Positions 55-47,645 of a stretch of 64,000 bases of DNA are shown piece by piece. The notes below the pieces were generated by a model. That model searched no databases. It was not told where the DNA came from and was given only the letters and a program-made list of their open reading frames with translations. A program made the translations under genes and the position numbers. This DNA comes from Clostridium algifaecis. GTDB taxonomy: Bacteria; Bacillota; Clostridia; Clostridiales; Clostridiaceae. The stretch is taken from contig NZ_JAGGLM010000013.1 in NCBI RefSeq assembly GCF_017874415.1, positions 1-64,000 on the forward strand, given 5' to 3'. Positions within the stretch are counted from its first letter, which is position 1. Each line of letters opens with the position of its first letter.

Positions 55-645
55 GTTTATTTTTGTACATATACACTTGGTAGTTTATCGCTTACTATTG
101 AAGTAAGAAATCTGTATAAGAATAATGAACAAATTAGCATACTAGATTTGTACAATATTACAAGTCTTTACAAGTCTATTGATACATTTTTTTCACAATT
201 AATTAATGAAGTGCTAAGTAATAACAATAAGTATATGAAAGTCAATGAATTTGCAACAATATTAGATAAAAAGATTTGTAATTTTTATGAGTATATAGAT
301 ATTTTAAGGAACAGAACTAATGCAACTAGAAAAACTAATGATATTATTAAAGATGCTATTAGTAAGTATACTTACACATGGAGTGCATATGCAAAGGATA
401 GGGCACAAAATAAAATTAGTAAGACTTTTGTAAAATATTACGACAGCAACTATTATGGTTTAGCAGAATGGTCTGATGAAATCCATAAGCAATACTTTAT
501 GGATGCTATAGATGAATATACAGCAAATAGTCCTAATGAAAAGAAAGCCAAAGATATATTAAAATTGTTTAAAGAACTAGACATAGAAGATAAAGAAGAC
601 TATGTAGATATTATTGAAGACAAGATAAAAAAGGCTTTTAGTTAA
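49..645 (+). CDS. hypothetical protein, first gene of the defence operon (possibly 5'-truncated)
   Basis: I do not recognise this 198-residue protein. It is helical-looking, charged and lysine-rich, with no membrane segment and no obvious catalytic motif. The first ATG has no ribosome binding site, lies inside a small hairpin, and a stop codon sits directly upstream in frame (43-45). The true start may therefore be internal, or the gene may have lost its 5' end. It ends 11 bases before the BrxA-like gene on the same strand, so the two are probably co-transcribed. Position suggests an accessory subunit of the BREX-like system, but the sequence alone shows no function. Confidence 0.55.
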   Translation: MAVYFCTYTLGSLSLTIEVRNLYKNNEQISILDLYNITSLYKSIDTFFSQLINEVLSNNNKYMKVNEFATILDKKICNFYEYIDILRNRTNATRKTNDIIKDAISKYTYTWSAYAKDRAQNKISKTFVKYYDSNYYGLAEWSDEIHKQYFMDAIDEYTANSPNEKKAKDILKLFKELDIEDKEDYVDIIEDKIKKAFS

Positions 646-656
646 GAGGTGAAAAA

Positions 657-1430
657 TTGAATATAGAATCATTGTCAGAAAAAATACCAATAGAAGAGAC
701 TATAAAAGCAATTGAGTATGTAAAGCATGAGAGAAATATAGAAAAATTTAAATCCTATGTAGATGATATTATGCCTTTTGGAGAAAAGACAACAGTTAAA
801 TATAGGAACAAATTTATTCAAAGGTTTATAGAGGTATCAGGGGAAGAAATAATGTATTCCCCTTTACTTCGATTTATTAATGAAATAGATAACTTTCAAA
901 CTAAAAAGGACATTATTTATTTTATAGTATGCTCAACATCTAGTGCTGTTGGGGAGATAGTAAAGGCATTTTGTGATAAAAAGATACCTGAAAGTATTGA
1001 CTCTGAAGAGTTATTAGAGGTATTTACTAAAAGTATGAAAGATGCTAAAGAAAGTTCTATTAAGAAAACATATAGTGTTTCAACTACAATACTAAGTGAT
1101 TTTAATATTATAAGCAGCAGAAAAGAAGATACAAAGACAAAGAAATTTATACTAAATACTAACATTAGACCTAATAACGAGGCTATACTTTTTAATTTGT
1201 ATTATGAGTTTATAAAAGTAAAAGGAAATAAAATGCCTGAAGAAGAAGCAGTATTAGAGAGTGATACATTTAAGTATTTTTTAATGAGTAGTTTAATGAA
1301 AAAGAGATATCTTAAATGGATTATAGACAAAGGCTATATTGAGCACTATGTCATGGGTGGAAATTCAAAATATCAGTTTGCCTATGACACACTAGATCTT
1401 TTAGTGGAGAAGGTGATAAGTAATGATTAA
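657..1430 (+). CDS. BrxA-like protein (DUF1819 family), BREX-like operon
   Basis: A 257-residue protein with the layout of BrxA/DUF1819: a basic helical N-terminal half (KTTVKYRNKFIQRFI near residue 43), then a segment with an ESSIKKTYSVSTTILSDFNI stretch near residue 130 that recalls the winged-helix part of BrxA, and a basic C-terminus. BrxA is a small DNA-binding protein of BREX phage defence. The start is a TTG at 657 behind an AGAGGTGA ribosome binding site. It overlaps the next gene by 8 bases, which implies translational coupling. Family assignment rests on architecture and neighbours rather than on a catalytic motif; a profile search could move it to another DNA-binding family. Confidence 0.6.
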   Translation: MNIESLSEKIPIEETIKAIEYVKHERNIEKFKSYVDDIMPFGEKTTVKYRNKFIQRFIEVSGEEIMYSPLLRFINEIDNFQTKKDIIYFIVCSTSSAVGEIVKAFCDKKIPESIDSEELLEVFTKSMKDAKESSIKKTYSVSTTILSDFNIISSRKEDTKTKKFILNTNIRPNNEAILFNLYYEFIKVKGNKMPEEEAVLESDTFKYFLMSSLMKKRYLKWIIDKGYIEHYVMGGNSKYQFAYDTLDLLVEKVISND

Positions 1431-1872
1431 AGTAATAGAAAATGCATTAAAAAGTATGGGGCAGAGGAAAGTTTTATTTATTTTAGGAGATCATTTAGTT
1501 GGAAAGACAAAACTGATAAAGGAATTTTTAAAAAGTAACTATGGAGAAGAAAATATCCATAAACATTATATAGATGTTGGACTGTATATAAAGGATAGGG
1601 TGAATAAAGAATATTTAGATACCTATGAGATTTACCCGGAGGAATTTAAGTCTGATGCAGAAATTTTTTTCAAAGAACTTGTAGATGAAAAATATAAGGA
1701 TTCTAATATAATTGTATTTGACCACATGGAGTTTTTGCTATCAGAAAAATATACAGGCTGGATTAAGATATTAGATAAAAAGGCTATGGAAGAAAATACA
1801 GCAGTAGTAATTGTTCCAAGTGAGTATAAAGATAGTTTACCACTGAGAGCATATAAGTATATAGAAGTGTAA
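1423..1872 (+). CDS. BrxF-like small P-loop ATPase
   Basis: A 149-residue protein with a Walker A motif GDHLVGKT at residues 22-29 and a hydrophobic Walker B strand ending in Asp (NIIVFDHMEF) near residue 100. A single-domain P-loop protein of about 150 residues directly before brxC is the signature of BrxF, known from type 3 BREX. Its exact role is not established; the P-loop implies nucleotide binding. The ATG overlaps the end of the BrxA-like gene, and the BrxC gene follows 16 bases downstream behind a GGAGGGG site, so the three are one transcript. Confidence 0.7.
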   Translation: MIKVIENALKSMGQRKVLFILGDHLVGKTKLIKEFLKSNYGEENIHKHYIDVGLYIKDRVNKEYLDTYEIYPEEFKSDAEIFFKELVDEKYKDSNIIVFDHMEFLLSEKYTGWIKILDKKAMEENTAVVIVPSEYKDSLPLRAYKYIEV

Positions 1873-1888
1873 TGGAGGGGAAATATCA

Positions 1889-4800
1889 ATGAAGATAAGA
1901 GAGGTTGTTGAAGTACCTCGTATAGATAAGATAGTTAGACTTACAGATAATATGTCTGATAAGGCAGATGCTGAAAAATTAAGAGGATTATTAAAAGGTT
2001 ATGTAATCACAGAAAGTGTTGAAAAAAATCTTTCTAATTTCTTTTATAAGGTAACAAATTTTAAAGACAAAGGACATGGTTTTTTAATCTCTGGGCTTCC
2101 GGGTTGTGGTAAATCTCATTTTATGTCTGTACTGGGGCTCTTAACCAAAAACAGTGAAGCCTTTGACATTATGAATGGTAAAAGTGAATCAATTGATAAA
2201 TCAAAGAAGTTTTTTCAAGATAAAAAGGTATTTGTAGTACCTCTTATGGCAGAAGAAGGTGGTCCAGAAATATCTTTAGAAGAGATGTTTTTTGATGCAG
2301 CAGAGAATATAACTGGTTTTCCTTTTAGTGATGCTAGTTTTTATATAAAACAATTTGAAGAAGCAATAGTGGCTAATAGTAACTATGAGCAGAAGGTAAA
2401 TAATTTCGTTCAAGAAGATTCAAAAGGAAGATTTTTAACTTGGGCAGATTTTAGAACAAAGATAAAAAGTGAAGAAGGAATAACTAGATTAATAAAATCT
2501 TTTGTAGATAAATATGAAATAACTTTCTTTAAACCCAATAGAGGCAGAAAAGAGAGACTAGATAATTTGTATAAATGGCTTTCTGAAGAAAATTATGATG
2601 CAGTGCTTGTATTAGTAGATGAACTTTCTGAATATTTAAATGATAGAGGCGGACGAGCAAGAACTGATGCATTGTTTTTAAAAACATTTTTAGAAAATGC
2701 GCAGCAAGAACGAAACGGAAAAATTATACCTGCATGGATAGTAGGAGCATTTTTATCTTCGTTAAATGATATTAAAGTGCCAGATGTATATGATTTAATG
2801 AAGGATAGGTTTCCAAGTGAAAATCAATTTACTTTGAAAGTAGACGATGTAGAAGATATTATTGACCAAAGACTTGTAGTTAAAAAGCAGCCTGATAAAA
2901 TTGAGGAAGCATACATTACATTGAAAAAGAAATATAATGCTTTTGATAAAGTAGAGAAAGATACTTTTATGAAAATATATCCTCTTCACCCAGAAAGTTT
3001 GGACATCTTATCAAAGTCAGTTCGCTTTTTATCAAGACAAAGGTCTATTGTGGATTTTGTATTAAGTGAAGTAAAAGGAAACATAGATGAAGGAGGACAT
3101 ACAAAGGGAATTTTAGATGAGGATTTTCTAAAACTTGTAACTCCAGATAGAATATTAAGCCATTTCCAAGAAAGAATAAGAGAACTTAGTGATAAAAGGG
3201 AATACTTTGAAAGTATATATGCTTATTATATGGGACCAGAAGGATTAGGAAACGGTAAAATCAAAGAGTTGTTTAAAGATAATGAGTCGGATAAAGATAC
3301 AGCATGTAAACTTATAGATGTAATGACACTTTTGAAAATTTTAGATTTGGAAAAAGAGTATACTGTAAGAGATTTAACTTATATGATTCAATATCCTAAG
3401 ATGGAAGGGGATTTTGCAGAAGAGAAGGTAAATAAAATTCTTTTCAAAATGTATGATAAAGGAAGATTTATAGAATTTGAAGAAGATGAAAGCAGTGCTG
3501 GAGGGAATATATACTTCATAAATAAAGATGTAAGTCTTGCAACGAAGATTACACAAGATATGAAGAAGAAACTTGCTTTAGTTGAAGGAGAAAGTATAGT
3601 ATCTATTGTTGATGAAATAGTAACTACACTATCACAAGAACCGTTAAGTATAAATGGATATTATAATGAACCATCTAGTATCAGAGTAAATTGGAATAAT
3701 ATAAGTCGTGAGGGTGTTGTTCTATTTAATAACTTAACCAAGACGGGAACAAAGGAAGGCTTATCTAAATCACTTACTAACCTAAAAGACTCTGAAAATG
3801 ACTTTTATATGTATATAGGAACCTTTTTAAATACAGAAAAACAGAAAGAATATATAGAGAAGGCTTTAAAGGAAGTTAGCAGTGCAGGCAGTAACCAGAC
3901 ATTTTCGTTATGGGGAAATCATGAAGATGATTCCTCAAAAGAGATAGAAAAGAGACTGATTAAATCAATAATATATTGGTTACCTTCTAATGAATTAGAA
4001 AGAGAAGAAGGTAAGGAAAAACTTTATAGGCTAAAAGAATATTTTGCTTATACAGAACTGTACAAGGAATATGAAAAGAATTACCAAGAAACAAATTCAA
4101 ATGAAAATAGAGAGTTAGTGGGAAAAGTTGAAGAAAAAATATTGAATTTACAAGATGAAGTATTTGAAATACTTAAAGGACTTTATTTAAATGGTAGTTT
4201 TTACAATATTGATGGCGATATTGATATAGATATATCTGCTTATGAAAAAGATTCTTTTACTAAAATTATGAATACAGTAGTAGGTGCTGTTTTAAGTAAG
4301 GTTTATAAAGATAATAAATTCATTTCTCCAGACGAAAATATAGGTCTTACAGATAAAGTTACAAATAAATTTATTAACTACTATATTACAGGAACTCAAA
4401 CAGATCTATCAGGTATTGATTTAAGTATAATAAAAAATATAGTGAAGAAGTTTGGAGAAGCACAAATTAGGATTGATTCATTTAAATTTAATATAGACGC
4501 TAAAAATAATAATCTAGTTAAATTGATTATTGATGAAGTTAATGGAAAAGGTGAAGTTATATATAAGAATTTATACAACAAAACAAGAAAATCTACTTTT
4601 GGTCCAGATAAAAATATTGTGGATATTTTACTTGCTATGATGATTAAAAAGGGATTCTTATTACCTATAAAAAATGATATGCCTGTAAGCATTGCTAATG
4701 TAAAGGCGCCGCTTAATTCTTCGGTTACTAAATTTAAAATGGGAGAATTTGTGGAAGAAAAATATCATGAAGGCCTAATAAGAATAACAAAATTATTCTT

Positions 4801-6022
4801 TAATAAAAAATTTGAAAAGCAGGACCTTTCTTTCCAAGAAGAATTATGGGAAGAACTTATTCAATTTAAAAAGGTAAAATTGAATGAAATAAGTGATATT
4901 AAGAATAAACTAAATGAATTTAAGGAACCTCTCAAATTAGAAGATAACAGGTTATCTAAGACATATGAAACAATTAACTTTATGAAAACTTTAGTTGAAG
5001 ATATAGCAGAAGACAATGGTTCAAAGGATGGATTAGAGTACTTTATAGAAAAAAACAACACGGAAATATCTGAGGGACTATTAGAGAAGTATTATGAAAA
5101 TTTAAATAAAATATATACTTGGGCAGAATCATCATTACCTATAGATATTCGTAAAGTAAATATAACTATTAATGGATATAGAGAATTTATTCCAGATAAA
5201 GAAGATTATAAGGAACTTATAAATCAGTATAATTCTATGAAAGAATTGTTAAATAACGGAGATGAATTCATATTCAATAATTGTGCAAGTGAACTAAACA
5301 AGAAATTTAATATATTTAAAAATGACTATATATCTTTATATGTCGAAGAGCATAATAGGGAGAATGGAAAGCCTGAATTTGATGAATTAAGAACTGTTCT
5401 TGAAGAAGATAACTTTAAATTCCTAAACTTACTAAATGGAATTGAAAGAATAAATATGGATTATGACTATATGAACATAAAAAATGATATAGATAGTCAA
5501 TTAAGGCTTCAGTGTAATTTATCTTCTATTAAGTTTTTAAAGGATAATGAAAGTGCTTGTAAGTGCTCTTTTAAACTAGGACAGAAGAAATTTATAGACG
5601 ATAAGGAAGAATATCTAGAGGCAATAACAAATGCTGTTTTAGGATATATAGATCAATTAAATTTGCAGGCAAATAAAGAGAAAGTATTTAAGTATATTGG
5701 AGATTTAAAAGAAATTGGAGAAAAGAAAGATATTATCCAATTAGTTGAAAAAATGTATGAAATACCTTTAGATGAAAACAGATTAGATAATTATAGAAAG
5801 TATTTAACTGTTAATTCAGAAATTATTCCTTTCATAGATAAGGCTTTAAAGGTGAATATAAATATTATTCAAAGAGATATAAATAAATTAGTAGAGGTAT
5901 TTAACGATAAGACCTATTCTAAAGAAGAAATGATAGAGAAGTTTACTGCACTTATTGAAGGAAATGATACATTATATAGAAACAATTATATTAAGTTTAC
6001 TAACTTAAGAAATGATAACTAG
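1889..6022 (+). CDS. brxC: BrxC-like large ATPase (DUF6079 type)
   Basis: A 1377-residue P-loop ATPase. Walker A GLPGCGKSHF lies near residues 67-76 and a Walker B strand VLVLVDELSEYL near residue 240. A YPLHPESL segment around residue 365 is typical of the AAA module of BrxC/PglY proteins. The remaining 1000 residues are helical and charged without further recognisable motifs. BrxC/PglY is the large ATPase of BREX and works with PglZ to block phage DNA replication. The next gene starts 8 bases after the stop, and that gene encodes PglZ, the universal partner. Length is in the usual 1100-1400 residue range. Confidence 0.88.
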   Translation: MKIREVVEVPRIDKIVRLTDNMSDKADAEKLRGLLKGYVITESVEKNLSNFFYKVTNFKDKGHGFLISGLPGCGKSHFMSVLGLLTKNSEAFDIMNGKSESIDKSKKFFQDKKVFVVPLMAEEGGPEISLEEMFFDAAENITGFPFSDASFYIKQFEEAIVANSNYEQKVNNFVQEDSKGRFLTWADFRTKIKSEEGITRLIKSFVDKYEITFFKPNRGRKERLDNLYKWLSEENYDAVLVLVDELSEYLNDRGGRARTDALFLKTFLENAQQERNGKIIPAWIVGAFLSSLNDIKVPDVYDLMKDRFPSENQFTLKVDDVEDIIDQRLVVKKQPDKIEEAYITLKKKYNAFDKVEKDTFMKIYPLHPESLDILSKSVRFLSRQRSIVDFVLSEVKGNIDEGGHTKGILDEDFLKLVTPDRILSHFQERIRELSDKREYFESIYAYYMGPEGLGNGKIKELFKDNESDKDTACKLIDVMTLLKILDLEKEYTVRDLTYMIQYPKMEGDFAEEKVNKILFKMYDKGRFIEFEEDESSAGGNIYFINKDVSLATKITQDMKKKLALVEGESIVSIVDEIVTTLSQEPLSINGYYNEPSSIRVNWNNISREGVVLFNNLTKTGTKEGLSKSLTNLKDSENDFYMYIGTFLNTEKQKEYIEKALKEVSSAGSNQTFSLWGNHEDDSSKEIEKRLIKSIIYWLPSNELEREEGKEKLYRLKEYFAYTELYKEYEKNYQETNSNENRELVGKVEEKILNLQDEVFEILKGLYLNGSFYNIDGDIDIDISAYEKDSFTKIMNTVVGAVLSKVYKDNKFISPDENIGLTDKVTNKFINYYITGTQTDLSGIDLSIIKNIVKKFGEAQIRIDSFKFNIDAKNNNLVKLIIDEVNGKGEVIYKNLYNKTRKSTFGPDKNIVDILLAMMIKKGFLLPIKNDMPVSIANVKAPLNSSVTKFKMGEFVEEKYHEGLIRITKLFFNKKFEKQDLSFQEELWEELIQFKKVKLNEISDIKNKLNEFKEPLKLEDNRLSKTYETINFMKTLVEDIAEDNGSKDGLEYFIEKNNTEISEGLLEKYYENLNKIYTWAESSLPIDIRKVNITINGYREFIPDKEDYKELINQYNSMKELLNNGDEFIFNNCASELNKKFNIFKNDYISLYVEEHNRENGKPEFDELRTVLEEDNFKFLNLLNGIERINMDYDYMNIKNDIDSQLRLQCNLSSIKFLKDNESACKCSFKLGQKKFIDDKEEYLEAITNAVLGYIDQLNLQANKEKVFKYIGDLKEIGEKKDIIQLVEKMYEIPLDENRLDNYRKYLTVNSEIIPFIDKALKVNINIIQRDINKLVEVFNDKTYSKEEMIEKFTALIEGNDTLYRNNYIKFTNLRNDN

Positions 6023-6030
6023 GTGATAGT

Positions 6031-8499
6031 ATGAATGAAGTATTTATAGATTGTTTAAAGAGATATCTTGAGGATATTACTGACTTAGGAAGTAATATAT
6101 TATTTTTACAGGATGAAAGTGGGCTTATGGATGATGTCGAGGGTATAGATTTGTATCTATATCCTCATAAAGTAATATCAGTTAAGGAGAATGTGTTATT
6201 TAGGGCTAAATACGAAGATATAAAACATAAAAAAGACGAAAAATATATACTGGTTCTAAAAAATAAGGGCTTAAAAAGTAAATTATTAGACTTTATAAAG
6301 CGTTCAGAGAAAGCAAGAGTTATTGAAATAGATACTAAATCATTACTTGATTCAATAGAAGATGATGTAAATTGGAGTGAAGAGATAAATAACTTTCAGA
6401 GTGAAGACATTAAGAAGAAATTTAGGGAATTATTATACTATAGAAAGTTATTTAGAAAAAGTAATATAGAAAAAAATGAGGTCGATAAAGTAGTACTATC
6501 TGCATTTGTTGATTTAGATGCCACTAAACTAAAAGATGATGTAGATTGTTATTTATATTATAAAAATCTAAGTGAAATTTATTCCGATTTACACAGTTTC
6601 AAATATAAATCAGATATAAAGGAACTTATATATAAAGTTTTTGCTGAAAGTGGTTCATTAATTGCGAATATAATAAAAAAGGACATATTTGTTGAGTTTG
6701 AAAATCTATTGTGGATATGTACTGCACTTTATGAATTTAATAAATTGACCAGTGAAAATGTAGAAATAGTTTTAGGCCAAGATTTAGATAAGTTATCATA
6801 TTTTAAGGAACATTTAATGGATCTTGTAGAGTTTGCTAAAGTAGTAAGTAAAAAAGATAAGATACTATATATTCAAAAGAAAGACGCAGCGGAAAAACTT
6901 ATTTATAAATCAGGTATAAACATATATGAAAGTGAAAAAGATTATAGAACTATTATAAGAGAAGGCAATGGAACTTATATAAGTGTAATAGAAAGTATTA
7001 AAACTCTTCTTAAAGGCGTTAACTTAGAAGGATTTAAAAAGATATATAAACATGATTTCAATGATTTAATGGAACTTAAAGTACTGATAGACGAAAATAA
7101 TAATTATTCAACAGAAAACATTAATAATGCAAAGAATTTATTTGATATAATCATAAATCTTTTTAAAGATATTGATTATATTGAAAAACAAATAAAATAT
7201 GTCATTAATAGTTATTCAGATTGGGAGAATCTATATAAAAATTATCTTTATGATTTACAGTACAGATTCAGCAAGATAGTGCACTTAGATAGTCAAAACC
7301 TTATAGAATCTAATAGATATGAAAACATAGATAAAAGAATAAGTAGAATATTAAATGAATATAGAAAAAGATTTGCTGAATTTATTGAGAAGAACTATGA
7401 ATCGTGGGAGAATACGGAATATGGAGTATCTAGACCTATTTTAAATAGTGATATTGAAAGTTTATTAAATCTGGAAGATAACAAAACTTTTATAATCATA
7501 TTTGATGGTATGAGATATGATGCTTGGGAACATATAGTTAGACCTTATTTTGAAACAGTTTTAGGTGAAAGAAATACCAAGTATAAAAGTTCTTATGCAT
7601 TGCTGCCAACTATTACATCTATATCAAGAGAAGTAATATATAGTAATATTATTAAAAACTATAAGAATGATGTTAACTATATTACAAAGTCAGAAAGTAT
7701 GAAGAATGAGAAACTGTTAAAAGAAAGCATTCTTCAAGATAAAAAGATTAATGTTCTTGTATTTAATATGTTTGATAGAGATGGTCATAAGGCTACAGAA
7801 GATTTTTATATTTTCTATGAGAAACAAAGACAGGTTTTTGAAAAAAGCATAAGTGAACTTATAAAGGTGATACCTAATGATGCAAACCTAGTAATTGCTT
7901 CGGATCATGGCTTAATGAGAATAGATGAAAATATAAATATGAAAGATGAGCAATATATAAGTACAGTTAAATCAAGATACTTAACTGTAGATAATAACAT
8001 TAAAAAAGAAGGCTGTATAAATATAAAAGATTATCTATTACCTTATAATAATAAAGGATACTTTTTAGGTGGTGGAGAGAAAGATTTTTATAGTCACGGA
8101 GGAGCAAGTATAGAAGAAATATTACTTCCTTTAGTGATATCTGAAACTAAAATTTCTCAAAGAAATAATGAAAATACACAAAAGATATCTTCTGTAGGAT
8201 TAGAAGAAGAAACTTTAGTGCTAGATGCTAATGTTCAATTAAAGTTGAGTTTTAAGCCAAATGAAAAAGAAAAGATCATATTAGTTTCATTGTACAATTT
8301 AAAAAATCAAAATGTAAGTAATAGGGATATTGAAAAGATACTAAAAAATAAGACTGGAAAATCTGGACTTGTAGATGGCGTTATCAGAAGGCTTCTACAG
8401 AAGTTGAAAAAAGATGGACTAGATATTATAGAAACTTCATCTGCAGGAGACTTAATCATTTATAAATTGAATGACAAAGGGTTAAGAGGAGAGATATAA
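6031..8499 (+). CDS. pglZ: PglZ, alkaline-phosphatase-superfamily BREX protein
   Basis: An 822-residue protein. The first 480 residues are helical. The phosphatase-like core starts with FIIIFDGMRYDAW near residue 487, has IASDHGLMR near residue 625, and ends with a metal-site motif YSHGGASIEEILLPLV near residue 687. These three motifs are diagnostic of PglZ. The C-terminal 100 residues look like a winged helix. PglZ is present in all BREX types and is required for defence; related PglZ proteins have nuclease or phosphodiesterase activity. It is packed between brxC (8-base gap) and brxD (stop directly followed by the TTG start). All expected motif residues are intact, so the gene should be functional. 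Confidence 0.93.
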   Translation: MNEVFIDCLKRYLEDITDLGSNILFLQDESGLMDDVEGIDLYLYPHKVISVKENVLFRAKYEDIKHKKDEKYILVLKNKGLKSKLLDFIKRSEKARVIEIDTKSLLDSIEDDVNWSEEINNFQSEDIKKKFRELLYYRKLFRKSNIEKNEVDKVVLSAFVDLDATKLKDDVDCYLYYKNLSEIYSDLHSFKYKSDIKELIYKVFAESGSLIANIIKKDIFVEFENLLWICTALYEFNKLTSENVEIVLGQDLDKLSYFKEHLMDLVEFAKVVSKKDKILYIQKKDAAEKLIYKSGINIYESEKDYRTIIREGNGTYISVIESIKTLLKGVNLEGFKKIYKHDFNDLMELKVLIDENNNYSTENINNAKNLFDIIINLFKDIDYIEKQIKYVINSYSDWENLYKNYLYDLQYRFSKIVHLDSQNLIESNRYENIDKRISRILNEYRKRFAEFIEKNYESWENTEYGVSRPILNSDIESLLNLEDNKTFIIIFDGMRYDAWEHIVRPYFETVLGERNTKYKSSYALLPTITSISREVIYSNIIKNYKNDVNYITKSESMKNEKLLKESILQDKKINVLVFNMFDRDGHKATEDFYIFYEKQRQVFEKSISELIKVIPNDANLVIASDHGLMRIDENINMKDEQYISTVKSRYLTVDNNIKKEGCINIKDYLLPYNNKGYFLGGGEKDFYSHGGASIEEILLPLVISETKISQRNNENTQKISSVGLEEETLVLDANVQLKLSFKPNEKEKIILVSLYNLKNQNVSNRDIEKILKNKTGKSGLVDGVIRRLLQKLKKDGLDIIETSSAGDLIIYKLNDKGLRGEI

Positions 8500-9780
8500 T
8501 TGAGTGATATATTAAGAGAAATTATAGATTCATTAAGAAATGGAACAGTTCCAGCAGAAGGCACTGAAAACATTGCAGTTGGGATTGCTGATGAGTTAGT
8601 AGAAATTGAAAATAGATTGGAAGGCATAAAGAATAATAAATCTGCATTTAAATTTATTATAGGTGACTATGGTTCTGGAAAGACTTTCTTTAGTACCGCA
8701 GCCAGAGAAATGGCCTATAGTAAAAATTTTGTTGTATCGTCTGTTGTAATTTCACAGGAAGCACCTCTTCATAAATTTGAAGAATTGTATCGCAAAATAA
8801 TGGATGGTATGAGAACATCAGAAAATAAAAAAATACCTGCTTTTACTTTAATACTTGAGGAATGGCTTTTAAATATTGAAGATAAAATTATTGAAATTGA
8901 AGGGTTAGATCCTGAAGAAGATAGAGAGAAGTTTGAAGTAGAAATGAGTAAGCGAATTAACGAAGAGTTATTAATAGTTGGTTCCATTGCTGCTTCATTT
9001 GCAAATGCTATAAGAGGTTTTTATAATGCTAAATATGAAGGTGATACAGTACTTTCACAAGGGGCTATTGCATGGCTTAAAGGTGAAAATGTAAGACCAG
9101 AACTAAAAAAGAAATTAGGGGTTACGGGAACAGTGACAAGGGAAAACTCTTTTGAGTTCTTTAGAGCATTGCTACATATGATTAAGTCTGCTGGGTATGA
9201 AGGTTTAACTGTTATTTTAGATGAAGTTGAAACCGTTCAGAAATTAATGAGAAAAGATATGAGAAGTGATGCATATGAAAATCTAAGGTTTTTTATAGAT
9301 GAATCGGATAAGAATTCATTTCCTAACTGTTTTTTCTTATATACTGGAACTACTGATTTAATGGAAAGCGAAAAGGGATTTAAATCTCTTGAACCCTTAT
9401 ATCAGAGAGTTAAAGTAGATAGAGATAACAAATTTAAGAATCTTAGGCAGCCTGTTATGTTTTTAGACGGGTTTAATAAAGAAAAATTATTTGAAGTTGC
9501 TTGTAAGGTAAGAAGTATACATGGAGAAGTTTATTCCTGGATGCCTAATGATAAGGTAACAGATAGTTTTATAGAAAGACTGGTCAATGATATAACTTCG
9601 GGTTTTGGTGGAGAAATTAATATAGGACCAAGAGGATTTTTAAGAACCTTTGTAGATATTTTAGATAAATCTCAAATGTATGATAATTATAGACCACAAG
9701 AACAATTTGAATTCAATGAAGAAATAAGAACTATGGCTGAGACTATTGAAAATGAAACTGCACACATAGTGAATTTTTAG
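8500..9780 (+). CDS. brxD: BrxD-like ATP-binding protein (DUF2791 type)
   Basis: A 426-residue AAA-type ATPase. Walker A GDYGSGKTFF lies near residues 54-63, Walker B LTVILDEVETVQ near residue 236, and a sensor-like TGTTDLM follows near residue 286. The C-terminal RGFLRTFVDILD is characteristic of BrxD, which accompanies PglZ and the BrxHI helicase in type 2 and type 6 BREX. The start is a TTG with an AGAGGAGA site upstream, directly abutting the pglZ stop. The helicase gene follows with 9 bases between stop and ATG, so translation is probably coupled along the row. Confidence 0.88.
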   Translation: MSDILREIIDSLRNGTVPAEGTENIAVGIADELVEIENRLEGIKNNKSAFKFIIGDYGSGKTFFSTAAREMAYSKNFVVSSVVISQEAPLHKFEELYRKIMDGMRTSENKKIPAFTLILEEWLLNIEDKIIEIEGLDPEEDREKFEVEMSKRINEELLIVGSIAASFANAIRGFYNAKYEGDTVLSQGAIAWLKGENVRPELKKKLGVTGTVTRENSFEFFRALLHMIKSAGYEGLTVILDEVETVQKLMRKDMRSDAYENLRFFIDESDKNSFPNCFFLYTGTTDLMESEKGFKSLEPLYQRVKVDRDNKFKNLRQPVMFLDGFNKEKLFEVACKVRSIHGEVYSWMPNDKVTDSFIERLVNDITSGFGGEINIGPRGFLRTFVDILDKSQMYDNYRPQEQFEFNEEIRTMAETIENETAHIVNF

Positions 9781-9789
9781 GTGATAATT

Positions 9790-11928
9790 ATGTCAAATTT
9801 CCATATGTTATGCCAACCGCTTAAGAGTAAAATTATCAATAAACTAGGGTGGAAGGAACTTACTTCAGTACAAGAAATGACAATTCCGGAGATTTTAAGT
9901 GGAAAAAATGCTGTAATTCTTGCACCAACAGCAGGTGGTAAGACTGAGGCAGCATTTTTCCCAATTCTATCTTTGATACATGAAGAAGAACTTGGTCCTA
10001 CATCTGTTTTATATGTTTCTCCAATAAAAGCATTGCTTAATAATCAAGAAGAAAGATTAAAAGTGCTTTCTTCTTTTGTATATGGTGATGTATTTAAATG
10101 GCACGGAGATGTTGAGAGCAATGAAAAAAGTAAATTTTATAAAAATCCATCTCAAATATTAATTATTACGCCTGAATCACTTGAAGTTATGCTAATGAGC
10201 CAAAAAGTAAACAAAGAAGAAATATTTAAAAATATAAGGTTTATAGTAATTGATGAGATACACGCATTTGCTGATAGTGAAAGAGGTTCTCATTTAATGG
10301 CTATTTTAGAAAGAATACAGGCTTTTTCTAAATATGATATTCAAAGAGTTGGTCTTAGTGCCACAGTTGGAAACCCTAAAGATATATGTGATTGGATGCA
10401 GGGAAGCAGTAAAAGAGAAAGTATTGTAATTGATCCACCTAAACTAGCAGGTCAGAAACGCATTGAAATTAAAGTGGTTAAGAAAGATGAAGATTTAGGT
10501 ATTGAGGTATGCAAGAGGATACAAGGGAAAAAAGCATTATTTTTCTCAAATAGCAGAAGTGCTGCAGAAGGATTAAAGAAAGCAATAGAAGGAAAAGGGA
10601 TAGATACATATGTTCATCATTCATCTATAGATAAAAGATTTAGAGAAGTAGCAGAAGAAAAATTTAAGATTGGAACGAATAATTGCATTATAGCAACTAA
10701 CACATTAGAACTTGGCATAGATATTGGAGATCTTGATATTGTTCTTCAGTTAGATTCGCCAAATACCGTGTCTTCATTTTTACAGAGGATGGGAAGAACA
10801 GGTAGACGAAAAGGAACTATTGCTCATTATGTATTTTTCCCTACAAAGCCAGCAAAGTTAATTCTTTCTATAGCAATATTGAGTCTTGCTATGAGGAGAT
10901 GGGTTGAAAATGTATATGTAAGTAAACTTTCTTATGACATATTGTTTCACCAAATATTAACTATGTCTATGGGCGAATTTGGAGTAAATAAGGAGCATGT
11001 TTATGAAGTTTTAAAATGTGTTTATTCATTTTCAGATATAAGCAGGTCAGACTATGAATACTTACTTAATTATATGGTTGAAAAGAAATTTATACAGATA
11101 AATAGGAACATGATACACATAGATACAGAAACTGAAAAGGTTTTTGGAAGACAGAATTTTATGACGCTTTACTCGGTTTTTGAAACAAATAAGGAGTTTA
11201 CAGTAAAGTTTAGAAATAAATCTATTGGAACTCTTGAAAGATGGTTTGTAAATGCTCTTGGTGAAAATTTTCAATTTATTCTAGCCGGCAAGTATTGGCA
11301 AACAGATAAAATAGATTATGATAATTCTATAATACATGTAGAAGAAGCAAAATCAGCAATGCCACCAAGATGGATGAGTGGAGAAGGTTTTTATTCTTAT
11401 GAGTTATCTCAAGAAATACTAAAGGTGCTAAGTACAAATGAAGAATATCCATTCTTAAATAGTTATGAGAAATCAGTATTAAAGGATGTCAGATATGAGG
11501 AGAAAGCCTTTGGACTTGAGATAGGCAAAATCATTATAGAAGAAATAAAAGACGGATATCACTTTTACACATATGCCGGAAATGGTGTGAACTATACAAT
11601 GGCTACTGCTTTTTCTTTTATAAATAGAATGATAGATATTAAAAGTATTACTTGGAATGGCTTTAAGGTAGTAGCAGCGGATAAAGACTTCAAGCCTAAG
11701 AATGAAGAAATATTAAAAGTTATTGAAGATATAAAGAACAATGAAAATTATTTTGAAGAGAATTATGATAAGTTAGTAGAAAGAGTACCAGATATTTCCT
11801 TATCAAAATATCAAAAATATTTGCCTGATAGACTTAGAAAGAAAATGTTGGCTGACTATGTATATAACATTAAAAAGACAGTTGAGTTGATTAGAACTTC
11901 TTCAATAGAAATATTAAAGATATATTAA
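9790..11928 (+). CDS. brxHI: BrxHI-like Lhr-type DEAD/DEAH helicase
   Basis: A 712-residue superfamily 2 helicase. Motif I APTAGGKTEA lies near residue 46, motif II DEIH near 155, motif III SATVG near 191, a LELGIDIGDLD segment near 307, and motif VI QRMGRTGRRKG near 331. The arrangement matches Lhr-like helicases, and the position next to BrxD identifies it as BrxHI. It should act as an ATP-driven nucleic acid translocase or helicase in the defence complex. The ATG at 9790 is preferred over the GTG at 9781 because the TTAGGTGAT ribosome binding site is correctly spaced for it. This is the last intact gene of the core defence row. Confidence 0.9.
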   Translation: MSNFHMLCQPLKSKIINKLGWKELTSVQEMTIPEILSGKNAVILAPTAGGKTEAAFFPILSLIHEEELGPTSVLYVSPIKALLNNQEERLKVLSSFVYGDVFKWHGDVESNEKSKFYKNPSQILIITPESLEVMLMSQKVNKEEIFKNIRFIVIDEIHAFADSERGSHLMAILERIQAFSKYDIQRVGLSATVGNPKDICDWMQGSSKRESIVIDPPKLAGQKRIEIKVVKKDEDLGIEVCKRIQGKKALFFSNSRSAAEGLKKAIEGKGIDTYVHHSSIDKRFREVAEEKFKIGTNNCIIATNTLELGIDIGDLDIVLQLDSPNTVSSFLQRMGRTGRRKGTIAHYVFFPTKPAKLILSIAILSLAMRRWVENVYVSKLSYDILFHQILTMSMGEFGVNKEHVYEVLKCVYSFSDISRSDYEYLLNYMVEKKFIQINRNMIHIDTETEKVFGRQNFMTLYSVFETNKEFTVKFRNKSIGTLERWFVNALGENFQFILAGKYWQTDKIDYDNSIIHVEEAKSAMPPRWMSGEGFYSYELSQEILKVLSTNEEYPFLNSYEKSVLKDVRYEEKAFGLEIGKIIIEEIKDGYHFYTYAGNGVNYTMATAFSFINRMIDIKSITWNGFKVVAADKDFKPKNEEILKVIEDIKNNENYFEENYDKLVERVPDISLSKYQKYLPDRLRKKMLADYVYNIKKTVELIRTSSIEILKIY

Positions 11929-11970
11929 AAAGACTGGAAGTTATTACCAATACTTAAGGGGTGATTATTT

Positions 11971-12512
11971 TTGCATTTATGTAAAAATAATCTAATGACT
12001 AAGGAAGATAGGATGTTTCCAATAAAGATTGAAACAAATCAAGTAAATGGTAATGGTGGATATCAAATAACAGTAGACCTTCTACAGAGGCAAAAGATAC
12101 AATTAAAAATGTATTTAACTATATAAAAGCAAATACAAATAATATGGGTGTTAAATCAAAGTTAGAGGAATTTAATTATATTACCCAACTTATTGATGAA
12201 AATGCTTCAGGTGGCAATCAAGAAATAGGTGCTGCCTTTTATATGAACATGATATCTAATTTTATAACCAAAGTAATAAAAACAAAAACAGTAGTATTAG
12301 GAAGCTTAACTGTTAATGGAAATCTTATTAAAGTAAGTAATTTAAATGAAAAGATAAGTTATATTATTGAGCAAGGAGCAAAATTTGTTTATCTTCCGAT
12401 CTCAAATCAACCAGATGTAATGATTTTATCACCAGATATTTGGAGCAAAGTATCATTGATATTTTATGTAAGTCCATAGGATTTAATGAGAAAGATATTT
12501 GAACTGGAATAA
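11971..12512 (+). pseudogene. decayed brxL fragment (Lon-like C-terminal domain)
   Basis: The plus strand encodes the C-terminal Lon-like part of BrxL in two frames. One frame runs from a TTG at 11971 (behind AAGGGGTGAT) and contains KIETNQVNGNGGYQI; the second, from about 12078, reads STEAKDTIKNVFNYIKAN and continues through VVLGSLTVNGNLIKVSNLNE, GAKFVYLPIS and LIFYVSP. Both match the order of motifs at the BrxL C-terminus. A one-base deletion near 12078 separates the frames. A TAG at 12477 interrupts the last residues, since DLMRKIFELE follows in frame up to a TAA at 12512. The AAA and N-terminal domains are missing. BrxL is normally a DNA-binding AAA+ protein of type 1 and type 4 BREX. This copy cannot make a functional protein. 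Confidence 0.75.
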
Positions 12513-14953: not shown

Positions 14954-15550
14954 TTATACTAATTCGGATTTACCTTCAAGTTTGGCATACATTCTTTCTT
15001 GCTGCTTAGTTGTAAATTGAAAATATATTTCAGTATTTGAAACTGATTTATGACCTAACCACCACTGCAATTCTTTTATATCTATATCACATTCAGCTAG
15101 ATGAACAGCAGTGGTATGCTTAAGTGCATGAAAATGATGTTTTGATTTATCTTCTATATTTGCTATTGAGCAATATTTTTTCATTAAATAATTTAAAGTT
15201 TGCCTAGATATAGGCTTGTTTTTTTGACTTTTAAAAAGTATTTCAGATGTTGATGATATTCCATTTTTCTTGATGTATTTGTTTAAAATATGTTTTGTTT
15301 TTTCATCTAATCTTATAGTATTATTATTGCTTCCTTTTAAGCGTTTACAATAGATTTCACCTTTATCCATATTATAATCTTCAAGTTTTAAAAGTGAAAT
15401 TTCAGAAGCACGTAAACCACATCTATATGCAATTCTGAAAATTGATAAATCTCGGAGAGTATGAGACGCGCATGTACTTTCAATAGTGCTAAAAAGAGAT
15501 TTTGCTTCTTGCTGTGTTAAATATTTAATTTTAGTTTCTGTGTTTTTCAT
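14954..15550 (-). CDS. short tyrosine recombinase (Fim/Xer catalytic domain only)
   Basis: A 198-residue tyrosine recombinase lacking the N-terminal SAM-like/arm-binding domain, thus the size of FimB/FimE-type invertases. Seen: AYRCGLRASEISLLKLEDY (Arg I near residue 48), a HFHALKHTTAVHLAE segment near residue 140, WWLGHKS (His III) near 165 and TEIYFQF (nucleophile Tyr) near 175. The usual HxLR box reads HALKH, so Arg II is replaced by Lys, which might weaken catalysis or mark a subfamily. The start follows TAAGGAGAA. About 30 bases upstream begins an imperfect inverted repeat pair flanking 184 bp, a possible substrate. Alternatively the gene is the integrase of the neighbouring prophage remnant. 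Confidence 0.85.
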   Translation of the reverse strand: MKNTETKIKYLTQQEAKSLFSTIESTCASHTLRDLSIFRIAYRCGLRASEISLLKLEDYNMDKGEIYCKRLKGSNNNTIRLDEKTKHILNKYIKKNGISSTSEILFKSQKNKPISRQTLNYLMKKYCSIANIEDKSKHHFHALKHTTAVHLAECDIDIKELQWWLGHKSVSNTEIYFQFTTKQQERMYAKLEGKSELV

Positions 15551-24201: not shown

Positions 24202-24972
24202 TTAATTTTCTAGACTATTAAGCCAAGCCTTAGTTTCTTTCATTCTGTAAGAGTTTCCATTCATGTTAACAACATAAGATTTATGAGTTAACCTATCAGT
24301 CATTGCTGCAGTCATCACAGGATCACCAAATATTTCACCCCACCTATCAAAAGAAAGGTTAGTGGTAATTATTGTGGATTTTTGACCAGCTCTTAAAGAA
24401 ATGTGAGTAAATAGGAGCTCCGCCCCCTCTTTATCAGAAGAGATGTATCCGAATTCATCCAAAATAACTAAATCATATTTAGAAAGTTTGTTTTGATAAC
24501 ATCTTAAATTTTTTGCTGATTTTAATTCTTTTAATTGTGTAATAAAAAGAGGTACAGTTGTAAATAATACTTTATATCCTTCTAAACATGCCTTTATTCC
24601 TAAAGCAATGGCAATATGAGTTTTTCCAGTTCCACAATTTCCAGAAAAAATTACATTCTGTCCGTCTTTTATGAATTTTAGGCTACTAAGATGCTTCAGT
24701 TTTAATTGAGCATCTGCTGGCAAATCCTCAATGGATATATCTTCTAAATACTTCTTATATGGAAAATTAGCTGTTCTAATTCTGCTTTGAGTTAAGTTAT
24801 AGTTTCTTATATCGCATTCTTTTTGAAGGAGCCCATACAAGAACTCCTCATAACTAAGGTTACTAGTATTAGCATCCTCAATTGCTAGTTCAATATCACT
24901 TTTTATAACTCCTAGTTTCATTATTTCAGCGTATGTTTTGATATCACTAATAAATGAATTCTTAGAATCCAT
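24202..24972 (-). CDS. istB: IstB-like ATPase of IS21 element, copy 1
   Basis: A 256-residue AAA+ ATPase with Walker A SGNCGTGKTHIAIALG near residue 108 and Walker B YDLVILDEFGYIS near residue 168. This is the transposition helper that loads with IstA at target DNA. It follows istA with a 17-base gap. It differs from the copy at 46875 by at least one residue (VLFTTVPLF here, VLFTNVPLF there). Confidence 0.95.
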   Translation of the reverse strand: MDSKNSFISDIKTYAEIMKLGVIKSDIELAIEDANTSNLSYEEFLYGLLQKECDIRNYNLTQSRIRTANFPYKKYLEDISIEDLPADAQLKLKHLSSLKFIKDGQNVIFSGNCGTGKTHIAIALGIKACLEGYKVLFTTVPLFITQLKELKSAKNLRCYQNKLSKYDLVILDEFGYISSDKEGAELLFTHISLRAGQKSTIITTNLSFDRWGEIFGDPVMTAAMTDRLTHKSYVVNMNGNSYRMKETKAWLNSLEN

Positions 24973-24989
24973 GATTATTCACTCCCTCA

Positions 24990-26549
24990 TTAGTTTAAAA
25001 GACTATTGAAATCTTTTAGAATATTAAGTGAATTGTTCATAATTTCATCATTATGATCTTCTAAATATATAATTTTAGGATCATCTTTTCTTGAACAAAT
25101 AAATTCAATTTTATCAACACTAATATTAGTTGGACATACTTCTTGTATATCTTTTATTGCATTATCAACAGAGACAAGCCCGTAATTACCAACTAATTCA
25201 ATAAGCTTTACAAACTCTCGTTCATTGTTGTTAAAATATTTAGAGTAAATCTCTTTCAGGGTGGTATCCATTTGATTAAAGGCTGTGCTATTAACCAATG
25301 CCTTCGGCTTTCTAAAAAGTGTTTTAGCATAATGAGTAATATCTATATGCCATAGGTTAAGACCATAAACCTTATCATGTCTAGCTATCTCTTCTTGATT
25401 ATAAAACACTAGAATTTTAGTAGTATATACCTTACAACGTACCATTGTACCAACATAATCATCTGGTACTGAGTAGTAACAGGAATCTACCATAATAGTT
25501 GAGTATTTGTTTACTCTTAGATCCGAAATAGTAGCTGTTTCGTATAAAGGCATATCTGGTAATAAGTACTCTCGTTCTTCGTCTAATAATTGAAACGGTG
25601 ACTTATTAGAATTGGATAAGGTTCTTGAATTTAATTTATTTAGCACTTCATCAAGGTAGGCGTTAGCCTCATCTAATGAGGTAAATGTGCGTTCTCCTGA
25701 AAATGCTTTCCTTCTTATAAATTCAACACTTCTCTCAACATGCCCCTTTTCATTGCCACTATAAGCATTACAAAACCTAAATCTAAATTTATAATATAGC
25801 GATAGCTTTAGAAGTGCCTCTGTTGGCTCTTTTTCTGTATGCCCTACAAACTTTGCTACCGCAACTCTAGTGTTATCATATACAACTGTTCTATGATTAC
25901 CTTTGATATGCTTAAAAAATGAGGCATGAGCTTCTAAAAAACATCCTGTATTCTGCTTTGGAAATAACCTAGCCCACCTGTAATTGCTATAAGCTGCTGT
26001 AAATACTGCTAATTGAAATTCCTTTATACTACCATCATTCCTTTTAAATTTAACTACCCCAAAATCAAATTCTACAATATCTCCTGGAGCATATTCTTGA
26101 CGTATATACGCTTCGCGTTTTTTTCTTTCTATGCTATTTACAGCATTTACTACAGACGGATAACTAACGCGATATCCTTCTTCAAGCAAAGTTTCATACA
26201 TATCTATTTTTTTCTTCTGTTGTTTAGATAATCCACTTAGACGCTTTTGCTCATTTTCTTTTAAAAATTGCTCGAGTCTTTCTATAACCTCATCGGTTAA
26301 AGCCTTTTTGACTCTTGGGGATGAAATATATTTAGGTTTAGCTGTTATATCATCGATAATATTTATTTTGTCTATTTCAGCCAAGTCATGATTAATTTCA
26401 ATCAACTTATTTTCATAATCTTTAACATATTTTCTTATGGTTTCTCTGCATATTCCCGTTTCTTTGCTTATCTGTCTTTGAGATTTACCTTCTCTGATAT
26501 GTTTTAATATAATGTCCTGTTTTTCATTCAAGTTTATCACCCTTTGCAC
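24990..26549 (-). CDS. istA: IstA-like DDE transposase of IS21 element, copy 1
   Basis: A 519-residue transposase. The N-terminal helix-turn-helix reads KSQRQISKETGICRETIRKY near residue 19. The integrase core has DIVEFDFGVVKF (first Asp near 158), VVYDNTRVAV (second Asp near 218) and GNEKGHVERSVEFIRR (Glu near 265), then a beta C-terminal domain. The frame opens at 26549 with a GTG (GTGATAAACTTGAATG in context), but a downstream start is possible. It differs from copy 2 at a handful of residues, for example GYRVSYPS against GYSVSYPS. Confidence 0.95.
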   Translation of the reverse strand: MQRVINLNEKQDIILKHIREGKSQRQISKETGICRETIRKYVKDYENKLIEINHDLAEIDKINIIDDITAKPKYISSPRVKKALTDEVIERLEQFLKENEQKRLSGLSKQQKKKIDMYETLLEEGYRVSYPSVVNAVNSIERKKREAYIRQEYAPGDIVEFDFGVVKFKRNDGSIKEFQLAVFTAAYSNYRWARLFPKQNTGCFLEAHASFFKHIKGNHRTVVYDNTRVAVAKFVGHTEKEPTEALLKLSLYYKFRFRFCNAYSGNEKGHVERSVEFIRRKAFSGERTFTSLDEANAYLDEVLNKLNSRTLSNSNKSPFQLLDEEREYLLPDMPLYETATISDLRVNKYSTIMVDSCYYSVPDDYVGTMVRCKVYTTKILVFYNQEEIARHDKVYGLNLWHIDITHYAKTLFRKPKALVNSTAFNQMDTTLKEIYSKYFNNNEREFVKLIELVGNYGLVSVDNAIKDIQEVCPTNISVDKIEFICSRKDDPKIIYLEDHNDEIMNNSLNILKDFNSLLN

Positions 26550-45297: not shown

Positions 45298-46857
45298 GTG
45301 CAAAGGGTGATAAACTTGAATGAAAAACAGGACATTATATTAAAACATATCAGAGAAGGTAAATCTCAAAGACAGATAAGCAAAGAAACGGGAATATGCA
45401 GAGAAACCATAAGAAAATATGTTAAAGATTATGAAAATAAGTTGATTGAAATTAATCATGACTTGGCTGAAATAGACAAAATAAATATTATCAATGATAT
45501 AACAGCTAAACCTAAATATATTTCATCCCCAAGAGTGAAAAAGGCTTTAACCGATGAGGTTATAGAAAGACTCGAGCAATTTTTAAAAGAAAATGAGCAA
45601 AAGCGTCTAAGTGGATTATCTAAACAACAGAAGAAAAAAATAGATATGTATGAAACTTTGCTTGAAGAAGGATATAGCGTTAGTTATCCGTCTGTAGTAA
45701 ATGCTGTAAACAGCATAGAAAGAAAAAAACGCGAAGCGTATATACGTCAAGAATATGCTCCAGGAGATATTGTAGAATTTGATTTTGGGGTAGTTAAATT
45801 TAAAAGGAATGATGGTAGTATAAAGGAATTTCAATTAGCAGTATTTACAGCAGCTTATAGCAATTACAGGTGGGCTAGGTTATTTCCAAAGCAGAATACA
45901 GGATGTTTTTTAGAAGCTCATGCCTCATTTTTTAAGCATATCAAAGGTAATCATAGAACAGTTGTATATGATAATACTAGAGTTGCGGTAGCAAAGTTTG
46001 TAGGGCATACAGAAAAAGAGCCAACAGAGGCACTTCTAAAGCTATCGCTATATTATAAATTTAGATTTAGGTTTTGTAATGCTTATAGTGGCAATGAAAA
46101 GGGGCATGTTGAGAGAAGTGTTGAATTTATAAGAAGGAAAGCATTTTCAGGAGAACGCACATTTACCTCATTAAATGAGGCTAACGCCTACCTTGATGAA
46201 GTGCTAAATAAATTAAATTCAAAAACCTTATCCAATTCTAATAAGTCACCGTTTCAATTATTAGACGAAGAACGAGAGTACTTATTACCAGATATGCCTT
46301 TATACGAAACAGCTACTATTTCGGACCTAAGAGTAAACAAATACTCAACTATTATGGTAGATTCCTGTTACTACTCAGTACCAGATGATTATGTTGGTAC
46401 AATGGTACGTTGTAAGGTATATACTACTAAAATTCTAGTGTTTTATAATCAAGAAGAGATAGCTAGACATGATAAGGTTTATGGTCTTAACCTATGGCAT
46501 ATAGATATTACTCATTATGCTAAAACACTTTTTAGAAAGCCGAAGGCATTGGTTAATAGCACAGCCTTTAATCAAATGGATACCACCCTGAAAGAGATTT
46601 ACTCTAAATATTTTAACAACAATGAACGAGAGTTTGTAAAGCTTATTGAATTAGTTGGTAATTACGGGCTTGTCTCTGTTGATAATGCAATAAAAAATCT
46701 ACAAGAAGTATGTCCAACTAATATTAGTGTTGATAAAATTGAATTTATTTGTTCAAGAAAAGATGATCCTAAAATTATATATTTAGAAGATCATAATGAT
46801 GAAATTATGAACAATTCACTTAATATTCTAAAAGATTTCAATAGTCTTTTAAACTAA
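45298..46857 (+). CDS. istA: IstA-like DDE transposase of IS21 element, copy 2
   Basis: A 519-residue transposase with the same helix-turn-helix and DDE motifs as the copy at 24990 (DIVEFDFGVVKF, VVYDNTRVAV, NEKGHVERSVEF). Small differences (INDITAK, GYSVSYPS, TSLNEAN, LNSKTLS, KNLQEV) show slight divergence. No frame damage is seen. Confidence 0.95.
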   Translation: MQRVINLNEKQDIILKHIREGKSQRQISKETGICRETIRKYVKDYENKLIEINHDLAEIDKINIINDITAKPKYISSPRVKKALTDEVIERLEQFLKENEQKRLSGLSKQQKKKIDMYETLLEEGYSVSYPSVVNAVNSIERKKREAYIRQEYAPGDIVEFDFGVVKFKRNDGSIKEFQLAVFTAAYSNYRWARLFPKQNTGCFLEAHASFFKHIKGNHRTVVYDNTRVAVAKFVGHTEKEPTEALLKLSLYYKFRFRFCNAYSGNEKGHVERSVEFIRRKAFSGERTFTSLNEANAYLDEVLNKLNSKTLSNSNKSPFQLLDEEREYLLPDMPLYETATISDLRVNKYSTIMVDSCYYSVPDDYVGTMVRCKVYTTKILVFYNQEEIARHDKVYGLNLWHIDITHYAKTLFRKPKALVNSTAFNQMDTTLKEIYSKYFNNNEREFVKLIELVGNYGLVSVDNAIKNLQEVCPTNISVDKIEFICSRKDDPKIIYLEDHNDEIMNNSLNILKDFNSLLN

Positions 46858-46874
46858 TGAGGGAGTGAATAATC

Positions 46875-47645
46875 ATGGATTCTAAGAATTCATTTATTAG
46901 TGATATCAAAACATACGCTGAAATAATGAAACTAGGGGTTATAAAAAGTGATATTGAACTAGCAATTGAGGATGCTAATACTAGTAACCTTAGTTATGAG
47001 GAGTTCTTGTATGGGCTCCTTCAAAAAGAATGCGATATAAGAAACTATAACTTAACTCAAAGCAGAATTAGAACAGCTAATTTTCCATATAAGAAGTATT
47101 TAGAAGATATATCCATTGAGGATTTGCCAGCAGATGCCCAATTAAAACTGAAGCATCTTAGTAGCCTAAAATTCATAAAAGACGGACAGAATGTAATTTT
47201 TTCTGGAAATTGTGGAACTGGAAAAACTCACATTGCCATTGCTTTAGGAATAAAGGCATGTTTAGAAGGATATAAAGTATTATTTACAAATGTACCTCTT
47301 TTTATTACACAATTAAAAGAATTAAAATCAGCAAAAAATTTAAGATGTTATCAAAACAAACTTTCTAAATATGATTTAGTTATTTTGGATGAATTCGGAT
47401 ACATCTCTTCTGATAAAGAGGGGGCGGAGCTCCTATTTACTCACATTTCTTTAAGAGCTGGTCAAAAATCCACAATAATTACCACTAACCTTTCTTTTGA
47501 TAGGTGGGGTGAAATATTTGGTGATCCTGTGATGACTGCAGCAATGACCGATAGGTTAACTCATAAATCTTATGTTGTTAACATGAATGGAAACTCTTAC
47601 AGAATGAAAGAAACTAAGGCTTGGCTTAATAGTCTAGAAAATTAA
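46875..47645 (+). CDS. istB: IstB-like ATPase of IS21 element, copy 2
   Basis: A 256-residue AAA+ ATPase with intact Walker A (SGNCGTGKTH) and Walker B (LVILDEFGYIS). It is essentially identical to the copy at 24202 and lies 17 bases after istA. It assists IstA in transposition. Confidence 0.95.
   Translation: MDSKNSFISDIKTYAEIMKLGVIKSDIELAIEDANTSNLSYEEFLYGLLQKECDIRNYNLTQSRIRTANFPYKKYLEDISIEDLPADAQLKLKHLSSLKFIKDGQNVIFSGNCGTGKTHIAIALGIKACLEGYKVLFTNVPLFITQLKELKSAKNLRCYQNKLSKYDLVILDEFGYISSDKEGAELLFTHISLRAGQKSTIITTNLSFDRWGEIFGDPVMTAAMTDRLTHKSYVVNMNGNSYRMKETKAWLNSLEN

Follow-up and report, generated by a model that had tools for sequence, protein, structure and literature searches.

The stretch of DNA analysed here (the window, 64,000 nucleotides; G000:C13:1-64000) comes from Clostridium algifaecis, and its position 1 is the first base of contig C13 in a genome (G000) of 53 contigs and 2.96 Mb. 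Near this contig end, at 657-11928 on the plus strand, lies an unbroken row of six genes encoding BrxA-like, BrxF-like, BrxC, PglZ, BrxD and BrxHI proteins of the BREX (bacteriophage exclusion) type, followed by a scrap of brxL that is interrupted by a stop (Table 1). An earlier note on this DNA had described both the row and the decayed brxL. It had also seen no PglX methyltransferase, with the caveat that one could lie before position 1, and had taken intact motifs to argue for a working machine, which would then have to tell self from non-self by other means. A PglX-like gene does lie directly upstream of the row, its 5' part on contig C14 and its 3' end in the window; by the note's own criterion this refutes the supposed absence. 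We consider it very probable that the operon is a BREX system of eight genes that relies on a methylase and belongs to a lineage with no assigned subtype, and that in this strain an insertion sequence has split its pglX-like gene.

The six downstream genes are full length and keep their motifs. Their names can be judged with the help of related operons described below, in particular those of Tissierella pigra, Virgibacillus sp. LDC-1 and a genome labelled G300. BrxD alone among the operon proteins of the window passes an NCBIfam cut-off. BrxC is recognizable yet divergent: no Pfam family reaches its cut-off in this protein, and the only PDB sequences matched by the BrxC family profile (E up to 0.1) belong to two BrxC-containing entries. 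In PglZ, the FDGMRYD and SHGG motifs are present in all seven operons, and SDHG in five, with ADHG in the remaining two. For the window's BrxF-like protein, BrxF is not among the PADLOC matches at E up to 1; its relatives do match the PADLOC BrxF profile (0.00024 in G300, 0.0008 in Tissierella and 1.3e-6 in Virgibacillus). The name BrxA is weak. The window protein, 74% identical to its counterpart in Tissierella, 59% in G300 and 37% in Virgibacillus, has no BrxA match among the PADLOC, Pfam and NCBIfam profiles, while the relatives give only Pfam BrxA at 0.012 (G300, below cut-off) and PADLOC BrxA at 0.037 (Tissierella). A PDB profile search with this family returned only ubiquitin-chain matches over about 50 residues, which we take as chance. 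For the other six operons, a comparison at E up to 1e-3 showed no BrxL match in the limited stretch of downstream DNA available.

Table 1. Features of the operon, its upstream part on contig C14 and related loci. Positions without a prefix refer to the window.
Feature	Position	Strand	Remarks
Insertion sequence right end, multicopy; contig end	1..95	.	identical over 92-95 bp to ends of C41, C24, C32
Target-site duplication, 8 bp, right copy	96..103	.	matches at 8/8 positions the 8 bp that precede the element's left end on C14
pglX-like 3' end, 182 codons	97..645	+	45-46% identity to G300 and Tissierella C-termini, 31% to Virgibacillus
brxA-like gene, 257 aa (name tentative)	657..1430	+	same place in 7/7 operons; weak BrxA profile matches in two relatives only
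brxF-like gene, 149 aa	1423..1872	+	P-loop GDHLVGKT; P-loop in 7/7; relatives match BrxF profile
brxC, 1377 aa	1889..6022	+	Walker A GLPGCGKS; PADLOC BrxC 2.6e-8
pglZ, 822 aa	6031..8499	+	Pfam PglZ 48.3 bits (cut-off 25)
brxD, 426 aa	8500..9780	+	Walker A GDYGSGKT; NCBIfam BREX_BrxD 373.4 (cut-off 350)
brxHI helicase, 715 aa	9781..11928	+	best PADLOC match BrxHI, 5.5e-207
BrxL C-terminal remnant, not a working gene	12084..12494	+	27.7% to E. coli HS BrxL (residues 553-689 of 694); contains a stop
pglX-like 5' part, 947-aa ORF	G000:C14 49-2892	-	native to about base 96; Eco57I, N6_Mtase and TaqI_C domains over Pfam cut-off
s200, first gene, 200 aa	G000:C14 2904-3506 (L044)	-	in all seven operons
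s200 in relatives' loci	L072 4847-5449; L073 3001-3582		
BrxC-PglZ fusion loci	L090 8646-14066; L091 5048-10594; L092 8175-13535; L093 2143-7305; L094 6828-12359; L095 6246-11453		six genomes

Upstream of the row, an open reading frame (ORF) at 49-645 has no family match in PADLOC, Pfam or NCBIfam. In the operon nearest to the window's by PglZ (G300, 46% identity), a methyltransferase gene lies upstream of brxA, and its C-terminus resembles the product of this ORF. A search of the C. algifaecis genome with the N-terminal part of the G300 methyltransferase found a gene at the end of C14 (E 2.3e-181, 57% identity) that reads off the contig end and, as in G300, is preceded by the 200-residue gene s200. 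This N-terminal part, which carries the DxSCGSGHF and NPPY motifs, aligns with residues 1-790 of the Tissierella PglX, and the part in the window aligns with residues 931-1096. Two more Eco57I-like methyltransferase genes, of 553 and 581 aa, lie in the same genome outside the operon (L045 5561-7222, minus strand; L046 5733-7478, plus strand).

The break between the two parts coincides with an insertion sequence. At the break, the terminal 95 bp of C14 recur at the ends of C31, C5 and C25, and the initial 95 bp of the window likewise recur at three other contig ends. With left ends on four contigs and right ends on four, these sequences therefore represent one multicopy insertion sequence in four copies. 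The 8-bp tags beside the ends pair each of the four left ends uniquely with one of the four right ends at 8/8 positions (other pairs agree at 3-5 of 8), and the left tag of C14 pairs with C13, the contig of the window. The element boundary falls exactly at base 95 on both contigs, so that C14 has about 932 native codons and the window 182; the start of ORF 49-645 lies within the insertion sequence. We infer from these junctions that the insertion has split the pglX-like gene of this strain about 932 codons into its roughly 1,100. A copy of the right end that has diverged (79%) is present in C7, with no transposase ORF of at least 80 aa beside it.

The gene order s200-pglX-brxA-brxF-brxC-pglZ-brxD-brxHI recurs in all seven operons found. 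The pglX-like gene is unbroken in five of them: in each it immediately precedes brxA, with 1097 aa in Tissierella pigra, 1106 aa in Virgibacillus sp. LDC-1 and, stop to stop, lengths of 1059, 1102 and 1073 aa among the remaining three (G650, G675 and G731). In the other two, C. algifaecis and G300, it is broken by insertions, in G300 by another kind of element, whose transposase ORFs are of the HTH_Tnp_1 and rve families (L038 573-2134). Two of the operons (Tissierella pigra, BrxC 72%; Virgibacillus sp. LDC-1, 47%) came from a contig scan with a two-row BrxC alignment. Among 391 genomes of the class, a four-row BrxC alignment matched four at E up to 1e-60 (G650, G675, G731 and the window's own). 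Among 398 of the phylum it matched six (G300, the window's own and four with the fused proteins described below), and among 13 of the class of G300 it matched G300 alone. Within the window's genus and family, a strong PglZ match occurs in one of 206 genomes, its own, and four others match only near 1e-3. Scans of viral contigs with PglZ, BrxC and the BrxC alignment revealed no relatives, and a search of phages with BrxD as the query found none. On plasmids, PglZ gave one distant match, E. faecium BREX-3, and BrxD gave 692 records, all below 60% identity, of which one neighbourhood (Aulosira) was inspected. In G300, an OLD-like ATPase-TOPRIM gene directly follows brxHI (L037 5499-7268, minus strand).

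These operons bear directly on the proposal that the window's operon is a working methylase-free BREX with another mechanism of self/non-self discrimination. In favor of it, this strain's operon has no unbroken pglX, and all six genes after it are full length with motifs. Yet the pglX-like gene lies directly upstream and is unbroken in five of seven operons, so that no such mechanism is needed; each of the seven operons has pglX, whole or split. Moreover, all observed copies of the element have the same end sequence; the break therefore looks too recent for intact downstream genes to support methylase-free working. We regard this explanation as highly improbable.

How the unbroken system would operate may be extrapolated from type 1. 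PglX would mark host DNA by adenine methylation, helped by BrxF, BrxC and PglZ; unmarked DNA would be recognized by the same complex and then restricted, PglZ probably serving as the nuclease. Loading of the BrxHI helicase may fall to BrxD, and BrxHI would stand in for BrxL. That PglZ is a nuclease and BrxD possibly a loader of BrxHI are proposals reported in PMC12839542. In E. coli type 1, deletion of PglX/BrxX abolished both methylation and phage protection (PMC6326788), and in an Acinetobacter system each of seven gene deletions lowered restriction (PMC9122589). Loss of PglX was tolerated in those experiments, and therefore no substitute self-mark is needed. Because the last 165-180 or so residues of PglX are cut off, methylation and defence would be lost or weakened in this strain, where the system is most likely off. 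The intact motifs that the earlier note took as signs of a working machine are real, but with pglX broken here, and protection lost in the type 1 deletions, the inference drawn from them is doubtful. On another reading, precise loss of the inserted element in some cells would switch the system on again. PglX is the gene struck in two of the seven operons, by different elements, and the introduction of PMC9122589 mentions that PglX disruptions are frequent, along with phase variation. On the other hand, two events prove no bias, pglX is among the longest genes of the operon, and a mixed population is not visible in an assembly; we find such switching distinctly unlikely.

Several observations weigh against the preferred reading, a methylase-based system with a split pglX. 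The C14-C13 junction is deduced, as no contig or read spans the element, and the body of the element was not found with the end queries in the 53 contigs. In PADLOC, the methyltransferase matches generic type II enzymes best (278 bits) and PglX with 77 bits, and so the name PglX rests on operon position and moderate similarity; generic models outscore PglX for the unbroken relatives too, and the solved structure closest to the unbroken Tissierella enzyme is 7lni, a site-specific adenine methyltransferase (4.3e-31). The BrxC proteins of G650, G675 and G731 are 86-96% identical to each other, and these close kin reduce the seven operons to about five independent lineages. The lineage is known here from genes alone, and its role in phage defence is a prediction. 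Finally, the cut PglX, of about 932 residues, retains TaqI_C as well as its catalytic motifs and may have activity. Alone or with a separate C-terminal piece, it might still methylate and keep the system active, the more so as an ORF persists in the 3' part, with a start codon of its own that lies within the element end. The lost C-terminal residues are, however, conserved in the family (31-46% identity), and we judge an active cut enzyme unlikely.

For the split, methylase-based system, two BREX hallmarks are in place: a BrxC-family ATPase gene adjoins pglZ in all seven operons, and a PglX/BrxX-type adenine methyltransferase gene lies upstream, though split in this strain. We compared its proteins, profile against sequence, with one reference per type: type 1 of E. 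coli HS, type 3 of E. faecium plasmid pP47-180 and a plasmid locus of Aulosira laxa NIES-50, which we take to be type 6 from its gene order and the type 6 layout. The references cover types 1, 3 and 6, with none for type 2. BrxC and PglZ are nearest to the type 3 reference (97.6% probability each), and PglX is nearest to type 1 (99.1%, E 4.9e-19), then type 6 (98.2%). BrxD and BrxHI are nearest to type 6, the only one of the three references that has them (35% and 38% identity in the profile alignment). The operon is therefore of mixed type, as had been proposed, with no good match to a named subtype.

With type 6 the operon shares the functional set: a small first gene, A, B-like, C, PglX, PglZ, BrxD and BrxHI. 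It differs in that pglX precedes brxA here but follows brxC in the reference, PglZ and BrxC are nearer to type 3, and PglX lies far below the NCBIfam BREX-6 cut-off of 900 (60.2 bits for the cut C. algifaecis protein, 59.5 for Tissierella, 76.4 for Virgibacillus). Type 3 has in common with it the BrxF-like P-loop protein, and the best NCBIfam model for its PglZ is BREX_PglZ_3. Yet that PglZ scores 68.9 bits against a type 3 cut-off of 250, the helicase is BrxHI and not BrxHII, BrxD is present in addition, and the methyltransferase has no match to PglXI at probability above 20. PglX and a presumed methylate-and-restrict logic link the operon to type 1, from which the mere scrap of BrxL, the presence of BrxD and BrxHI and a PglX score of 104.7 bits against the NCBIfam cut-off of 500 set it apart. 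Unlike type 2, the row has no PglW-like gene, either in the window or in the order of the relatives. Unlike type 4, it has only the BrxL scrap and, in agreement with the earlier note, no PAPS reductase among its profile matches (the rest of the genome was not searched). BrxD and BrxHI also match SngB (207.5 bits) and SngC (488.5 bits) of Shango (SngABC); Shango identity was rejected, as the BrxD (376.7) and BrxHI (687.3) scores are higher and BrxC, PglZ and PglX surround both genes. We did not meet the eight-gene set in the literature consulted, including sections of the 2026 BREX survey PMC12839542, which may mention it elsewhere. The operon looks like a BREX lineage without an assigned subtype, small and apparently unnamed, which, as judged by sequence, joins type-3-like BrxC and PglZ, type-1-like PglX and the BrxD-BrxHI pair.

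The first gene, s200, is present in every operon of this lineage. When its seven aligned sequences were compared with six aligned PglX sequences, they matched residues 8-244 of the latter (probability 89.7, E 1.8e-6, 193 columns), and s200 is therefore probably a free-standing paralogue of the N-terminal helical domain of PglX. A PDB profile search with s200 returned nothing below E 0.2. As for BrxE, the first gene of type 6, s200 showed no similarity to the single presumed BrxE compared, that of the Aulosira locus (probability 0.1), and this one comparison lends no support to s200 being a BrxE. The PglX N-terminal domain has been related to the N-terminal dimerization domain of M.EcoKI, and BrxX works as a monomer (PMC12839542). 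It is conceivable that s200 pairs with PglX.

Outside the lineage, the nearest relatives of the window's BrxC within the set searched are single proteins of 1721-1849 aa in six genomes (G217, G392, G456, G566, G556 and G575) that are matched by both the BrxC and the PglZ profile of this family. They score 282-454 bits with the BrxC profile, compared with 18-36 bits for the BrxC references of types 1, 3 and 6. Residues 1 to about 1320 correspond to BrxC and the last 250 or so to PglZ (best E 4.1e-13, weakest 1.9e-4). A P-loop and a DG...DHG...HG pattern are visible in all six. Pfam detects DUF6079 in each of three fusions scanned, and PglZ once, below cut-off (19.5 against 25), so that the PglZ assignment rests on the family profile and the motifs. 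A fusion of the two proteins fits the report that BrxC binds BrxB:PglZ (PMC13326643). Directly before the fusion gene, all six loci have a tetratricopeptide repeat (TPR) gene. The PglX family profile gave no match below E 0.03 among 87 ORFs of at least 120 aa in the six stretches of 16.7-19.9 kb, a result that leaves room for other kinds of methyltransferase. The main text of PMC12839542 uses none of the terms TPR, tetratricopeptide and BrxC-PglZ. Possibly, these loci are a two-gene, methylase-free relative of BREX; if they do act alone, they would be such a relative, though outside the window. We give an even chance to the more specific proposal that the operon is an unnamed BREX subtype marked by s200, with its nearest outside BrxC in TPR-linked BrxC-PglZ fusions that have no PglX-like gene nearby.

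The surroundings of the operon include genes typical of mobile DNA. On C14 beyond s200 there are genes for a TraG/VirB4-like ATPase and an MT-A70 methyltransferase (L044 8993-12490, minus strand), and downstream of the operon a tyrosine recombinase gene (window 14954-15550, minus strand). Together these genes suggest an integrative mobile element around the operon, which probably rides on it or beside it. Farther into the window, two pairs of ORFs of equal lengths (256 and 519 aa) lie in opposite orientation at 24202-26549 (minus strand) and 45298-47645 (plus strand), and both 256-aa ORFs carry the same IstB-like stretch. The pairs are probably two copies of an IS21-type element.

An insertion sequence at a contig end can mimic the absence of a gene, and recognizing it here shows that an attractive example of methylase-free BREX was mistaken. 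The novelty that is left is a BREX variant whose methylase gene was recently broken in this strain. It adds a coherent eight-gene lineage, in seven genomes and about five independent lineages, to the BREX family. A free-standing paralogue of the PglX N-terminal domain would open a new way to study how the BREX complex holds PglX, and the loci with a fused BrxC-PglZ and a TPR gene offer a simple two-gene object for asking what the BrxC-PglZ core does without a methylase.

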